Shown in pieces: positions 29,497-35,622 of a stretch of 64,000 nt of DNA (positions are counted from its first letter, which is position 1; each line of letters begins with the position of its first letter). The stretch covers positions 3,038,001-3,102,000 of the forward strand of contig NZ_LT629781.1 of the NCBI RefSeq assembly GCF_900105685.1, written 5' to 3'. The notes beneath the pieces are model-generated. The model was given only the letters and a program-made list of their open reading frames with translations. It had not been told where the DNA came from and made no database searches. The position numbers and the translations under genes were made by a program. The stretch is from Verrucomicrobium sp. GAS474. Lineage in GTDB: Bacteria; Verrucomicrobiota; Verrucomicrobiia; Methylacidiphilales; GAS474.

Positions 29497-30537
29497 TTAG
29501 GGTTCCACATCAATCGGCGTACCGATCCTGACCATCTTCGCCAAGGCCTCGGCGTTCCAGTTCGCCAGGCGGAAGCAGCCGTGCGATTGCGTCCGGGAGA
29601 CGTTCTCCGGCTCGGGCGTGCCGTGGATGCCGTAGGTGGGGAGGCTGAGGCCGATCCAGACGGCCCCGACGGGGTTGCGCGGGCCGGGCGGGATGATGAG
29701 GCGTCCCGTGATCCCCTCGGCCTTGGCCGCATCGGCAAAGAGCTTCGGATCGAAGGTGTAGTTCGGATGAACGGCGATGACTTTGACGGCGAGGGAGCCC
29801 GAGGGCCGCTTCTCCTTGTCCTTCGCGATGGAACATGGGAAATGGGCGACGACTTTTCCCGTGGTGTCGAGGACATCGATGCTCCGCTCGGCGAGCCGGA
29901 TGCGGACCTTCGCGGCGGAAGGAGTCGGGGCGAAGGGACGGAGGGCCGGAACGCGCAGGACCGCCCCCGCCTGGGGGGAGGGCTGCCCGGGATTCAGCGC
30001 GATGAGGAAGGAGCGTTTCGCGTGGAACTTCTCCCCCAGGAGGTCCCAGATGGCGGTGTATCCCATTGTCGGCGCGGCGGCCTTTTCCTTCCACCCGTGC
30101 GGCACCGGGACGACGGCGGCGACGTCCTCGGGCGTGACGGTGTAGGTGGTGAGCGGCGTGGAAGCCCCCTCCCCTTGCAGGGCCTGCCACGTCGCCGCAT
30201 CGGCCACGCCGGTCACCGGCAGGCCCCGGCTCTCCTGATAGGCGCGGAGGGCTTTGGTGGAGCGATCCCCGTCGGTGCCGTCGATGAAGCCGCAGGAAAA
30301 GCGGTGCCGTTCCAGGGCGACCTGGAAATCGAGGAGCGGCGGGACCACCGCGGGCACGGGAATCGGTGCCGCAGAGGGAGCGGAAACGGAAACGCTGCTG
30401 TCCGTCGAGGGTGACGGCCCATCGATCGTGGTCGCCGCCGACGGAGTGGGCGGAGAAACGGGGGCGGCGGGTTCCGCCTTGATCGGGGCGGGAGCCGGAG
30501 GGGGAACAGGAGCCTGGGCTGGAACGACGGCGGGCAC
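29497..30537 (-). CDS. L,D-transpeptidase (YkuD family) with peptidoglycan-binding domain; likely made as a frameshift fusion
   Basis: GTG 30537 is the first possible start in this frame, but it lies inside a Pro/Ala-rich linker and would give a protein with no signal peptide. The frame is open back to a stop at 30682-30684 and runs through the A9 tract at 30640-30648, where it meets the membrane-anchor gene. Domains are: linker to ~65, peptidoglycan-binding fold (CGFIDGTDGDRSTKALRAY), a LysM-like segment, and the YkuD catalytic domain with IHGTPEPENV and Cys in SHGCFRLA. It would form 3-3 cross-links or attach proteins to peptidoglycan, which must happen in the periplasm. Confidence 0.85.
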   Translation of the reverse strand: MPAVVPAQAPVPPPAPAPIKAEPAAPVSPPTPSAATTIDGPSPSTDSSVSVSAPSAAPIPVPAVVPPLLDFQVALERHRFSCGFIDGTDGDRSTKALRAYQESRGLPVTGVADAATWQALQGEGASTPLTTYTVTPEDVAAVVPVPHGWKEKAAAPTMGYTAIWDLLGEKFHAKRSFLIALNPGQPSPQAGAVLRVPALRPFAPTPSAAKVRIRLAERSIDVLDTTGKVVAHFPCSIAKDKEKRPSGSLAVKVIAVHPNYTFDPKLFADAAKAEGITGRLIIPPGPRNPVGAVWIGLSLPTYGIHGTPEPENVSRTQSHGCFRLANWNAEALAKMVRIGTPIDVEP

Positions 30538-30635
30538 CGAGGCCTTAGGCTTCGGTGCGACCGGCGGGGCGGGCGGGATCGGAGGAGCCGGAACAGGAGC
30601 AGGCGGAGGAGGAGGGGCCGAGGCCGCCGGGGTCT

Positions 30636-30938
30636 CTACTTTTTTTTTACCGCGTCGGCACCGAGTTCTTTCCCTTCGGGATTAAAGACCTCGGCGTCGG
30701 GGTTCTGGCCCGCGATCTGGCGGAGCTGCTGGGTGGTCTGCTGCGCCGCCTGCTTCGGTGCCGGGACCGCGTTGGGAAGGGGGCTGAAGAAGGGCCAGAC
30801 GACCCAGGCCAATCCTCCCGCCAGGACGGCGAGGAGGAACCACGAGAAGAGATTCTTCCCGCCTTTCTTTCCCTTGCCTCCCGATGCCTTGCCGCCTTTG
30901 GGGGCAGGCTTGGCTTTGGCGTTCGCTTTTTCGGCCAT
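30636..30938 (-). CDS. Single-pass membrane anchor protein; zero-frame product of the frameshift locus
   Basis: The 100-residue protein starts with a basic Lys/Gly/Ala-rich stretch (residues 1-28). A membrane helix follows (NLFSWFLLAVLAGGLAWVV, ~29-51), then a short Gln-rich periplasmic segment (AAQQTTQQLRQIAGQNP). It ends DAVKKK at a stop immediately after nine A residues. The -1 frame past this point continues as proline-rich linker and L,D-transpeptidase, so a shifted product of ~480 residues would be a membrane-anchored enzyme. It lies 31 bases after pilC on the same strand. Confidence 0.7.
   Translation of the reverse strand: MAEKANAKAKPAPKGGKASGGKGKKGGKNLFSWFLLAVLAGGLAWVVWPFFSPLPNAVPAPKQAAQQTTQQLRQIAGQNPDAEVFNPEGKELGADAVKKK
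30639..30645 (-). promoter_or_regulatory. Candidate -1 ribosomal frameshift heptamer A-AAA-AAG
   Basis: In the frame of the anchor gene the mRNA reads GTA AAA AAA AAG TAG. The heptamer A AAA AAG has the X-XXY-YYZ form and is the same slippery sequence used by E. coli dnaX, with the zero-frame stop directly after it. A -1 shift gives VKKKVETPAAS and continues into the L,D-transpeptidase. The nine-A run could equally support RNA polymerase slippage. A weak GGCGG/CCGCC hairpin can be drawn downstream; no Shine-Dalgarno is seen at the dnaX-like distance. Confidence 0.5.
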
Positions 30939-30969: not shown

Positions 30970-32214
30970 TCAACCCGTCTGGTTGCCGAGGTTCTGGATG
31001 ATGCTGATGAGCGGGAGGAAGAGGGCGATGACGATGGTGCCGACGACGAAGGCGAGGCCGACGATCATGAGCGGCTCAAGGAGGCTGGTGAGGCCGCCGA
31101 CGGCGACATCGACCTCTTCGTCATAGACGTCGGCGACGCGGACGAGCATCTCGGGGAGGCGGCCGACTTCTTCGCCGACCTGGACCATGCTGACGACGAT
31201 GGGGGGGAAGATGCCCGAGGCCTCGAGGGGGCCGACGACGGTCTCGCCCTCCTTGACGCTGTCGTGAATCTTGCCGATGGCGTCCGAGACGATCTGGTTG
31301 CCCGCCGTCTCCTTCGTGATGTTGAGCGCCGCGAGGATCGAGACGCCGCTGCTCACGAGGGTGCCGAGGGTCCGGGTGAAGCGAGAGATCGCCGTCTTCG
31401 TGATGAGGTCGCCGAGGAGGGGGAGCCGGAGCTTCACCTTGTCGGTCAGCCGCATGCCGTAGGCGGTGCTCATGAAGACCTTGATCGAGACGACGACGAC
31501 CGCGAGGAAGCCGAAGATGACGATGAAGTGCTGCACCAGCATGTCGCTGAGGTCGATGACCATCTGGGTGAGCCAGGGAAGGGCCGCGCCGTTGAGCATG
31601 TCCTTGAAGATCGCCTGGAACTTCGGGACGATGAAGGCCATCAGGAAGATCAGGATGCCGAAGGCGATGAAGAGGACGACGACGGGGTAGGCCATCGCCG
31701 AGGTGATCTTGCCCTTGATCCGCTCGGACTTTTCCTGGAACTCGGACAACCGCGCGAGGACGACGTCGAGGACGCCGCCCATTTCACCGGCTTTCACCAT
31801 GTTCACATAGAGCTTGGTGAAGATGTTCGGATGGAGCGCGAGGGCCTCGGAGAAAGTGCCGCCCGATTCGACCGATTCGGCGAGGGCCTCGATCGTCGCC
31901 TTCAGGACCGGATTGCGCTCCTGCTTCCCGAGCGTCCGGAGGGCGCGAAGGAGCGGGAGGCCGGCGCTGATAAGGGTCGCGAGCTGGCGGGTGAAGACAG
32001 TGAGGACCTTCGACTTGACGGTGCCGCCGGTCTTTTTCTTCGCCTGCTTGACCGGCGCGGCGGCCGCCCCCCCTCCCCCGCCCTGGGAAATGCGGGTGGG
32101 GAAGTAACCCTGTTGCTTGATCTGCGCGGCGGCGGCGGCCTGGTCCTTGGCGTCGACCTGCCCGGTGATTTGCTGTCCCGAGCCATCGACGGCGATATAG
32201 GAGAACGTGGGCAT
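30970..32214 (-). CDS. pilC: Type IV pilus / type II secretion inner-membrane protein PilC/GspF
   Basis: The 414-residue protein opens MPTFSYIAVDGSGQQITG, typical of PilC/GspF. It has two repeated T2SSF domains, each starting with a helical bundle (FTRQLATLISAGLPLLRAL and FTRTLGTLVSSGVSILAAL), and three membrane helices, the last near the C-terminus (AFVVGTIVIALFLPLI). A Gly-rich linker and Lys-rich segment lie at ~45-70. PilC links the cytoplasmic ATPase to the pseudopilus. It follows the two PilB genes on the same strand. Confidence 0.94.
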   Translation of the reverse strand: MPTFSYIAVDGSGQQITGQVDAKDQAAAAAQIKQQGYFPTRISQGGGGGAAAAPVKQAKKKTGGTVKSKVLTVFTRQLATLISAGLPLLRALRTLGKQERNPVLKATIEALAESVESGGTFSEALALHPNIFTKLYVNMVKAGEMGGVLDVVLARLSEFQEKSERIKGKITSAMAYPVVVLFIAFGILIFLMAFIVPKFQAIFKDMLNGAALPWLTQMVIDLSDMLVQHFIVIFGFLAVVVVSIKVFMSTAYGMRLTDKVKLRLPLLGDLITKTAISRFTRTLGTLVSSGVSILAALNITKETAGNQIVSDAIGKIHDSVKEGETVVGPLEASGIFPPIVVSMVQVGEEVGRLPEMLVRVADVYDEEVDVAVGGLTSLLEPLMIVGLAFVVGTIVIALFLPLISIIQNLGNQTG

Positions 32215-32282: not shown

Positions 32283-33959
32283 CTAGGTATACTTCAGGAC
32301 CTCTTCGATTGTGGTTTCCCCATCAAAGATGTTGCGCAACCCGTCGGAACGGAGCGTCACCATGCCCAATTCGATCGCCTTCTGCCGGATGACGACGGAC
32401 GGGGCCCGTTGATTGATGAGATCGCGAATCGGCTCGCTGATGTCCAGGAGCTCGTAAATACCTTTGCGTCCCTTATACCCGGTTTGATTGCATTGATCGC
32501 ACCCGGCCCCGTAATAGAAATTCTTGTCCCCGACCTCGTGCGCCGAGAGCCCGAACTGCGCGAGGACAGTCTCGGAAGGCTCGTAGGGCGTCCGGCAATT
32601 CTTGCAGATCTTCCGGACGAGCCGCTGCGCCAGCACCCCTTCGAGGGCCGAGGCGATGAGGAAGGGCTCCACGCCCATGTCGATGAGACGGGTGACGGCG
32701 CCCGGGGCGTCGTTCGTGTGGAGCGTCGTCAGCACCAAGTGACCCGTGAGGGAGGCCTGGATCGCGATCTGGGCCGTCTCGAGGTCGCGGGTTTCACCGA
32801 CCATGATCTTGTCGGGGTCCTGGCGGAGGAAGGCGCGGAGGACGCGGGCGAAGTTGAGGCCGATCCCCTCGTTGGCCGGAACCTGCATGACCCCTTCCAT
32901 CTCGTATTCGACGGGATCCTCGACCGTCAGGATCTTCGTCTCGATGCTGTTGATGCGGCGGAGGCAGGAATAGAGCGTCGTCGTCTTGCCCGAGCCGGTG
33001 GGGCCGGTGACGATGAAGATGCCGTTCGGCTTCTCGATCGCCTCGCAGATGTAGGTGTAGATGTAGGGCGGCAGGTTCAGCGCCTCGAGGTCGAGGTTCA
33101 CCGCGGAGCGGTCGAGGACGCGGAGCACGACGCTCTCGCCGAACTGGGTCGGGAGGCAGGAGACGCGGAGGTCGACCGGCTTCCCGCCGATCACCGACTG
33201 GATGCGGCCGTCCTGCGGGACGCGGCGCTCGGCGATGTTCAGGTTCGCCATGACCTTGATGCGGGAGGTGATCGGGATGGCGAGGCTCTTCGGCGGCGGC
33301 GACATCTCGTAGAGGGCGCCGTCGACGCGGTAGCGGATCTTGAAGTCGTACTCGAAGGGCTCGAAATGGATGTCGCTCGCCCGCGCCTTGATGGCCTGCG
33401 CCAGGACGGTGTTGACGAACTTGATGATCGGCCCGGCGGCCGCTCCTTCGAGGGCGAGCTTCTCGCCGTTCCCCTCGCCCGGGAGGTCGACGCCGGAGAG
33501 CTCCGAGAGGAGGTCGTCGAGCTCGGCGTTCTGCGCGCCGTAGTATTGGTCGATCTTTTCCTGGACCTCGGCGATCGGGGCGACGAGGACCTGCATCTCC
33601 CCGCCGACGGCGAAGCGGAGGTTCTCGACGATCTGGGAGTCGATCGGGTTGACGAGGGCGACGTAGAGGACGCCCTCCCCGTAGTAGACGGGGAGCGCGC
33701 CGTGGAGGCGGGCGGCCTGGGGGGTGATCCGCTCCAGGAGGTCGGGGGTGAACTGGCACGCGGCGAGGTCGACGACCGAGGTGCCGAGGTCGGAGGCGAT
33801 GATGTTGTACTGGTCGGCCTTCGAGAGGATGCCGAGGTCCTCGACGACATCGAGGACTTCCTTCCCGTGGGTCTGTTGCTCGTCGAGGACCATCTGCTTC
33901 TGGGTCTCATCGACGTAGCCGTGATGCTCCAGGAGGGAAACGTAGCTGAGCGGATCCAT
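32283..33959 (-). CDS. PilB/GspE-type assembly ATPase, copy 1
   Basis: The 558-residue protein has an N-terminal T2SSE_N-like region (~60-150, LPVYYGEGVLYVALVNPID). The ATPase follows with Walker A GPTGSGKTTTLYS, Asp box VEDPVEYEMEG, Walker B IMVGETRDLETAQIA and a His box around LTTLHTNDAPGA. A four-Cys zinc site is formed by CKNC and GCDQCNQTG. It powers pilus or pseudopilus assembly at the inner membrane. It starts one base after the stop of the second ATPase gene, so the two are co-transcribed. Confidence 0.94.
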   Translation of the reverse strand: MDPLSYVSLLEHHGYVDETQKQMVLDEQQTHGKEVLDVVEDLGILSKADQYNIIASDLGTSVVDLAACQFTPDLLERITPQAARLHGALPVYYGEGVLYVALVNPIDSQIVENLRFAVGGEMQVLVAPIAEVQEKIDQYYGAQNAELDDLLSELSGVDLPGEGNGEKLALEGAAAGPIIKFVNTVLAQAIKARASDIHFEPFEYDFKIRYRVDGALYEMSPPPKSLAIPITSRIKVMANLNIAERRVPQDGRIQSVIGGKPVDLRVSCLPTQFGESVVLRVLDRSAVNLDLEALNLPPYIYTYICEAIEKPNGIFIVTGPTGSGKTTTLYSCLRRINSIETKILTVEDPVEYEMEGVMQVPANEGIGLNFARVLRAFLRQDPDKIMVGETRDLETAQIAIQASLTGHLVLTTLHTNDAPGAVTRLIDMGVEPFLIASALEGVLAQRLVRKICKNCRTPYEPSETVLAQFGLSAHEVGDKNFYYGAGCDQCNQTGYKGRKGIYELLDISEPIRDLINQRAPSVVIRQKAIELGMVTLRSDGLRNIFDGETTIEEVLKYT

Positions 33960-33960
33960 C

Positions 33961-35622
33961 TTACTTGTCCCCCATCGTGGTGGTGATGACCTCGTCGGGG
34001 GTCGTCATGCCGACGAGGACCTTGCGGATGCCGTCCTCGCGCATCGTCCGCATGCCCAGGGCGCGCGCGCGGGCGCGGAGGATGCCGGGGGGCTGGCGGT
34101 CGTTGATCATGCTGCGGATCTCGTCGTCGATCTGGAAGATCTCGAAGATGCCGCACCGGCCCTTGAAGCCGGTGCCGCGGCAGTTGTCGCAGCCCGCGCC
34201 GCGGGAGAAGGAGGCCGATTCGATCTGGCTGGGGGTGAGGTTCAGCGCCCGGACCTCGGCCTCGGTCGGCGGATGGGGGACCTTGCACTTGGAGCAGATC
34301 TTCCGGACGAGGCGCTGGGCGAGGACGCCGCGCAGGGAGGAGGCGACGAGGAAGGGCTTGATCCCGATGTCGATCAGACGGCTGACGGCGCTCGGCGCGT
34401 CGTTCGTGTGGAGCGTGCTGAAGACGAGGTGGCCGGTGAGCGACGCGTTGATGGCGATGCCCGCGGTCTCGGCGTCGCGGATTTCACCGACCATGACGAT
34501 GTTCGGGGCCTGGCGGAGCATCGCGCGGAGGGCGGCGGAGAAGGTCATCCCGACGTCCTCGTTGACGGGGACCTGGTTGATGCCGGAGAGCTGGTATTCG
34601 ACCGGGTCCTCGACGGTGATGATCTTCCGGTCGGGCTTGTTCAGGAAGTTGAGGCAGCCGTAGAGCGTCGTCGTCTTGCCGGAACCGGTCGGGCCGGTGA
34701 CGAGGACGATGCCGTCGGAGACGCCGAGGAGGCGCTCCATGACGGTCTGGTCGTCGCTGAGGAAGCCGAGTTCGGGCAGGCCGAGGCTGAGGCTCGACTT
34801 GTCGAGAATACGCATGACGACCCCCTCCCCGTGGACGGTGGGGACGGTCGAGACGCGGAGGTCGACCTGCTTGCCGTTCTGCTGGATGATCTGGATGCGC
34901 CCGTCCTGGGGGAGCCGCTTCTCGGCAATGCTCATCTTCGACATGATCTTCAGGCGGCTGATGATCGAGCCCTGGAGCTTCTTCGGGGCATCGGGCATTT
35001 CCTGGAGGACGCCGTCGATCCGGTAGCGGACGCGGAACCGTTTTTCGAGGGGCTCGAGGTGGATGTCGCTCGCCCGGAGGGAGCAGGCACCGATGATGAG
35101 GTCGTTCACCATCCGGATGATCGGGGCGTCGCCGTCGCTGGCGGCACCCTCGACCGGCGCGCCGCCTTCGCCGCCGGGCCGGGCGACGGGGGCGTCGCCG
35201 TAATACTCGCGGATCGCCGCGTCGATCTGGGACTTCGGGACGGCGACGCTGGTGATTTCGATCCCCAGCTTTTGCTGGAGGGCGTCGACCGAATCGTAGT
35301 CGTAGGGATCGCTCGTCCCGAGGCGGAGGACGGTGCCGTCAAAGGAGATCGGGACGACGCCGTAGCGAGCCGCTTCGGCGCGAGGCAACAGGGAAATCGC
35401 CTTCGGGGAGACCGAATTGATCTCTTCCTGGAATTCGAGGCCGGCGTCGTTGGCCATCGCCTGGACGACGCTCCCCTCGTTGATTTTGCCCGATTGAATC
35501 AGGTAATCGACCGCTCCCTTGCCTTTGCCCCCGGAGGAGCCTTTCGCCTCATCGGCGTCGAAGGAGGAAATCACCCCCTCGCGGATCAGAAGTTCGAGAA
35601 TGTAATCGTCTTTGGGAAGCAC
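33961..35622 (-). CDS. PilB/GspE-type assembly ATPase, copy 2
   Basis: The 553-residue paralogue of the next gene carries GPTGSGKTTTLYG, VEDPVEYQLSG, IVMVGEIRDAETAGIA, FSTLHTNDAPSA and the zinc Cys pairs CSKC and GCDNCRGTG. Its N-terminus (MLPKDDYILELLIREG) has an extra helical segment followed by the T2SSE_N-like region. All catalytic motifs are intact in both copies. It is the first gene of the minus-strand unit ATPase 2 - ATPase 1 - pilC - anchor - L,D-transpeptidase. Confidence 0.94.
   Translation of the reverse strand: MLPKDDYILELLIREGVISSFDADEAKGSSGGKGKGAVDYLIQSGKINEGSVVQAMANDAGLEFQEEINSVSPKAISLLPRAEAARYGVVPISFDGTVLRLGTSDPYDYDSVDALQQKLGIEITSVAVPKSQIDAAIREYYGDAPVARPGGEGGAPVEGAASDGDAPIIRMVNDLIIGACSLRASDIHLEPLEKRFRVRYRIDGVLQEMPDAPKKLQGSIISRLKIMSKMSIAEKRLPQDGRIQIIQQNGKQVDLRVSTVPTVHGEGVVMRILDKSSLSLGLPELGFLSDDQTVMERLLGVSDGIVLVTGPTGSGKTTTLYGCLNFLNKPDRKIITVEDPVEYQLSGINQVPVNEDVGMTFSAALRAMLRQAPNIVMVGEIRDAETAGIAINASLTGHLVFSTLHTNDAPSAVSRLIDIGIKPFLVASSLRGVLAQRLVRKICSKCKVPHPPTEAEVRALNLTPSQIESASFSRGAGCDNCRGTGFKGRCGIFEIFQIDDEIRSMINDRQPPGILRARARALGMRTMREDGIRKVLVGMTTPDEVITTTMGDK

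Follow-up and report, generated by a model that had tools for sequence, protein, structure and literature searches.

How is a putative L,D-transpeptidase made and brought to the cell wall when its reading frame has no start codon ahead of an internal linker and opens, one base out of register, at the very end of a small membrane-protein gene? This question is raised by a locus on the minus strand of the window, by which we mean the whole stretch of 64,000 nucleotides of Verrucomicrobium sp. GAS474 DNA that was analysed. An earlier note on the same DNA had proposed a programmed -1 frameshift on a slippery site of the dnaX type. Here, we examine the locus and its homologues and argue that the frameshift is very well supported but that the ribosome is probably not the machine that slips.

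Two reading frames meeting at nine A

The upstream frame, ORF1 (30636..30938), encodes an anchor protein of 100 aa with a Lys/Ala-rich N-terminus, one hydrophobic segment, an NPDAEVF motif (30684..30704) and a KKK-stop end. The hydrophobic segment, LFSWFLLAVLAGGLAWVVWPFF (30786..30851), is a probable transmembrane helix judging from the reading of the sequence and from the aligned homologues, in which a hydrophobic segment is found at the matching position. The NPDAEVF motif is found in all lineages of the homologue alignment, and its P, A and E are invariant. Searches of Pfam and NCBIfam with ORF1 gave no match. The 3' end of ORF1 reads GTA AAA AAA AAG TAG with exactly nine A (30640..30648, T9 on the plus strand), and the TAG stop (30636..30638) is located one base past the run.

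In the -1 frame, ORF2 (29497..30639) is open for 380 aa after the run and consists of a Pro/Ala-rich linker, a peptidoglycan-binding domain (PG_binding_1, 30178..30327; Pfam, E=8.9e-11, over the cut-off), a middle region and a YkuD L,D-transpeptidase domain (29506..29907; Pfam, E=1.4e-14, with 55.3 bits against a cut-off of 23.4). The YkuD domain carries the HG...SHGC.R catalytic motif, as IHGTPEPENVSRTQSHGCFR, and among solved structures the one closest to ORF2 by sequence is 8da2, from the L,D-transpeptidase family (E=1.5e-45, residues 21-342). The first ATG, GTG or TTG of this frame past the run is a GTG at 30537, which lies 102 nt downstream, within the linker, and is preceded by a weak SD-like AAGG. 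A product started at this GTG would have neither a signal peptide nor a TM segment. A shift at the run would give a fused product of 100 + 380 = 480 aa, and the predicted peptide at the fusion junction, around GADAVKKKVETPAAS, has identical residues whether the polymerase or the ribosome shifts. The earlier note had described the A9 and the codons around it, the open frame with its domains, the missing start and signal peptide, and a 100-residue anchor beside a fusion of ~480 residues; all of these were borne out.

We counted homopolymers by pattern search of the 3.76-Mb one-contig genome. A10 is absent from this genome and A9 occurs three times on both strands together; the other two A9 are intergenic, and the junction run is the only one within a coding region. 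In a 2.6-Mb genome of the same genus, this junction is one of two A9. Since the genome has no A10 and just three A9, and since the junction recurs in 35 genomes, A9 at this position is more than chance.

Conservation and selection across seven families

The earlier note had suggested aligning homologous loci from related genomes. Homologues of the transpeptidase were sought in 62 genomes of the order, by protein, and in a collection that covers 84,980 species; the class was searched with an ORF1 profile. A pattern search for the motif with T9 in 388 genomes of the phylum, among which the order's other families are hardly sampled, returned the window only. From these searches, 35 genomes were counted, which are distinct species with the junction readable on both sides and are not 35 independent lineages. 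The A-run and the two-frame arrangement persist in every one of them. The run is unbroken in 35/35 (A9 in 28, A10 in 7), and the transpeptidase is in the -1 frame in all 35 and in frame in none; in the A10 loci, the phase differs so that the enzyme again falls in the -1 frame. ORF1 carries P-x-A-E throughout, plus the TM segment where the N-terminal part is present, and its stop lies 1-24 nt beyond the run. The two-frame loci belong to seven families, namely f1, f2, f4, f6, f7 and f9 of the order and f93 outside the order (L084, L092), between which the enzyme identity is ~43-57%. Most of the 35 assemblies are fragmented metagenome bins. The same run is also found at or near contig ends in L167, L171 and L172 (genera g14 and g4).

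Two observations concern the surroundings of the run. In L173 (G450), a second A9 lies within ORF1 on the minus strand, at about 2823, ~60 nt upstream of the junction run. In f4 loci (e.g. L026, L028, L121), the run is always preceded by GAT and never by GAC, though these genes use both codons. The T of this GAT creates a TAA stop in the -1 frame that overlaps the start of the run, so that a fusion could result only from shifts within the run.

Both ORF1 and ORF2 are under purifying selection. In twelve gene pairs, pN is well under pS in either frame, with pN/pS of about 0.07-0.42 for ORF1 and 0.05-0.32 for ORF2; in the L028/L030 pair, for example, pN and pS are 0.06 vs 0.57 in ORF1 and 0.06 vs 0.54 in ORF2. 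The catalytic Cys is present in every complete homologue. The His ahead of Gly-Cys is replaced in L024 (SSGCFR) and L027 (SLGCFR) as compared with SHGCFR.

Probable transcriptional slippage and its alternatives

The observations described above, that is, the conserved two-frame structure, the run length, the purifying selection and the catalytic motif, are the basis of our explanation. We propose from sequence comparison that one gene gives rise to two membrane proteins by a programmed frameshift at the A9/A10 run, most likely through transcriptional slippage. RNA polymerase would slip on the run, so that a part of the transcripts gains one A (a net change of +1 base, or -2). Transcripts copied faithfully would be translated into the bare anchor, ~70-100 aa in most lineages and 100 in the window, with its one TM segment, the NPDAEVF motif and C-terminal lysines. 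The mRNA with one additional A would give the ~480-aa protein, in which the same anchor is followed by the Pro-rich linker, the peptidoglycan-binding domain and the L,D-transpeptidase domain, and the enzyme domains would be held in the periplasm. We infer that both products are made and that the polymerase is the slipping machine; that one of the two machines, polymerase or ribosome, shifts at this junction is highly probable.

Transcriptional slippage is supported by the conserved length of the run and by precedent. A 9A run that is length-conserved among homologues has been considered very likely to reflect purposeful transcriptional slippage (Baranov et al. 2005, PMC1088944), nine being the length at which a large share of bacterial genomes shows evident selection against slippage (PMC1088944). 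In Citrobacter rodentium tssM1, A11 transcriptional slippage is proven at 20-25%, and ribosomal stimulators are also absent (PMC4256274). Runs of about 9 or more A/T are prone to slippage; at the loci studied here, the run is an uninterrupted A9 or A10 and conserved in length, and the long product requires a shift.

The phase of the run relative to ORF1 points in the same direction. It varies (NNA AAA AAA AAG; AAA AAA AAA; NAA AAA AAA AAG/C), and the length is never below 9. Wherever the run starts within the codon before it, the third base of that codon is always A. The usage of A-ending codons in these genes is 0-20% of Val for GTA (mostly under 10%), 5% of Thr for ACA, 35-85% of Glu for GAA and 38% of Gln for CAA. 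The first A of the run is required by no slippery heptamer, yet it is kept where the codon is a rare synonym.

The earlier note had favoured a dnaX-type -1 shift by the ribosome. In a shift of this kind, two tRNAs slip on A AAA AAG or A AAA AAA while the mRNA is normal, and the same proteins result. The note's programmed frameshift from anchor to transpeptidase is now strongly supported by 35 genomes; the ribosomal mechanism is not the best supported. A AAA AAG is found in the window and in most lineages of phases 2 and 3, a stop follows immediately behind the slip site in many loci, and this motif is among the most efficient in E. coli given stimulators (PMC4066793). Moreover, every heptamer observed is a potential ribosomal -1 site, where ribosomes could conceivably shift even unstimulated. 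However, the heptamer varies, being A AAA AAA in f4 and g13 and A AAA AAC in L013 and L092, while the run of 9-10 A does not. A heptamer needs just 6-7 A, yet the run never drops below 9, and its extra 5' A persists in spite of codon bias. The X XXY YYZ heptamer before the stop is thus present, but the stem-loop and the internal Shine-Dalgarno about 10 nt upstream that go with dnaX-type sites are not. Downstream stem-loops were not enriched at the junction in any of three folding intervals (mean z -0.26, -0.32 and -0.14, with a control of +0.19), and the downstream region of many f4 loci is unstructured, with MFE near 0. No conserved RNA fold was found upstream of the junction, and the 20 nt ahead of the run contain only short scattered SD-like matches, none of them consistent. 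Since the run is at least 9 in any phase, the extra A is retained although codon bias disfavours it, and no stem-loop or internal Shine-Dalgarno is conserved, we rank transcriptional slippage, which the note had listed as a mere alternative, above the ribosomal shift, which we consider unlikely.

It could also be supposed that the locus holds two independent genes, with the transpeptidase starting inside the linker, at the GTG of the window with its AAGG or at the ATGs of f4 linkers. That this is very improbable comes from L002 (a sister species) and L024, where the stretch from the run to the enzyme domains contains no ATG, GTG or TTG, and from the linker start positions, which are not conserved between lineages. 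Besides, the product of a linker start, having no signal peptide or TM segment, would stay in the cytoplasm, and the conserved run would be left unexplained.

Phase variation, with replication slippage on the run toggling the enzyme on and off, has even less to commend it. Homopolymers of 9 A mutate readily, and surface or envelope genes are typical phase-variable genes, but about one third of the genomes would then be expected in frame, as against 0/35 (one genome per species), and the off-frame phase is maintained by differing run lengths (9 or 10) in differing contexts. The sequencing error or decayed gene that the note had entertained is excluded, since an error would be a single homopolymer difference in one assembly, whereas the same junction stands in 35 separate assemblies with both ORFs under purifying selection and the catalytic Cys intact.

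Transcriptional slippage would also allow a more speculative and rather doubtful idea, that the rate of slippage is itself regulated and more than a means of expression. An envelope complex might require bare NPDAEVF anchors and anchored transpeptidases in a ratio that is fixed or depends on conditions. If this is true, length-guarded A9/A10 slippage would have set that ratio across several families, and a lineage losing the run would have had to split the gene in two.

Split genes, neighbours and known systems

In the enzyme-domain tree, the two-frame genes all fall within one clade (support 100/99), which also holds single-frame members from f3, f5 and f9/g12; the branches of f93 and f5 are long and their exact placement is unsure. 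Parsimony on this tree requires a minimum of 4 changes. The simplest reading is one origin followed by three losses, gain and loss not being separable by the tree alone.

In f3 (G012, G017), a stand-alone ORF1 comes after pulE-pulF as in the window (L165 of G017, ~3.2 kb; L166 of G012, ~2.9 kb; minus strand) and ends in ENPDAEVFEVKSEKAEK and a stop, with no A-run. An unrelated gene follows it, and the transpeptidase is encoded elsewhere in a single frame with its own hydrophobic N-terminus. Weaker stand-alone relatives of ORF1 (E about 1e-7 to 1e-8 with the ORF1 profile) are found in f95 (L168 = G455, L169 = G470); these read IRENPAAEVL and have neither an A-run nor an adjoining transpeptidase. 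That the anchor persists alone suggests that it has its own function, and its survival in f3 without the run, with the transpeptidase encoded elsewhere, suggests that both products are wanted. A family in which the run is gone and both parts are separate genes provides a natural control.

Judging from sequence features, the short product would be a small protein that crosses the inner membrane once and has its tail outside, and the long product would use the same anchor to hold a peptidoglycan-binding, putative L,D-transpeptidase at the cell wall. The genome encodes five YkuD proteins including ORF2, which rules out that ORF2 is its sole YkuD L,D-transpeptidase. As there are four other YkuD loci, the transpeptidase of the window is probably specialised.

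Upstream of ORF1, on the minus strand, are genes for T2SSF, the platform protein F of type II secretion or type IV pili (30970..32214), and for T2SSE, a secretion/pilus ATPase with an MshEN domain (32283..33959). T2SSF is the same neighbour in f1 and by the stand-alone ORF1 of f3. Ahead of pulF, the window has a tandem pair of GspE/PilB-type ATPase genes (32283-35622, minus strand). We dropped the idea of ORF1 as a general pilus or secretion partner, as pulE-pulF are neighbours in f1 and f3 only and other genes lie upstream elsewhere; a role with the pilus or type II secretion machine is only a lead.

To our knowledge, few conserved chromosomal bacterial genes depend on programmed slippage. 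Many described cases are limited to one species, to mobile elements or to AT-rich endosymbionts. The junction described here sits in mostly GC-rich genomes, deep across seven families, and offers a testable case of selection guarding the length of a homopolymer. Ordinary gene calling would make the transpeptidase look truncated or cytoplasmic. Our literature search, which covered mainly openly available main texts, so that an earlier mention is possible, returned no paper in which programmed slippage or frameshifting of such a gene is linked to L,D-transpeptidases or to Verrucomicrobia. Only four Verrucomicrobia genomes were part of the 2013 GeneTack survey, and peptidoglycan enzymes are unmentioned in its main text. 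The locus is a new, unusually well conserved case of a known type of recoding, for which we found no published description.

Single-frame proteins with TM, linker, PG_binding and YkuD parts in other Verrucomicrobiota (e.g. f9/g12, Pedosphaera) share the enzyme and the topology at ~40-57% identity, but their frame is continuous with no A-run, and NPDAEVF is absent from the N-termini read. E. coli dnaX shares with the window the A AAA AAG heptamer of its -1 ribosomal frameshift and a stop close behind; here, the internal Shine-Dalgarno and downstream stem-loop are missing, and the shift lengthens the protein rather than shortening it. Thermus thermophilus dnaX makes two products per gene by transcriptional slippage on an A9 of equal length, but there the DNA encodes the long form in one frame and slippage yields the shorter one, whereas the long form here requires slippage. 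Transposase orfA-orfB fusions at 9A runs (PMC1088944) likewise join two overlapping ORFs, in mobile elements rather than in a chromosomal cell-wall enzyme gene. C. rodentium tssM1 is alike in that its A-run lies close to the end of an ORF for a membrane protein and that a shift by one base yields a longer protein with an extra C-terminal domain; both forms are needed there (PMC4256274). That case is known from one species, with Yersinia tssM3 as the reverse case; here, the conserved run extends over seven families, and what is appended is an enzyme of the cell wall.
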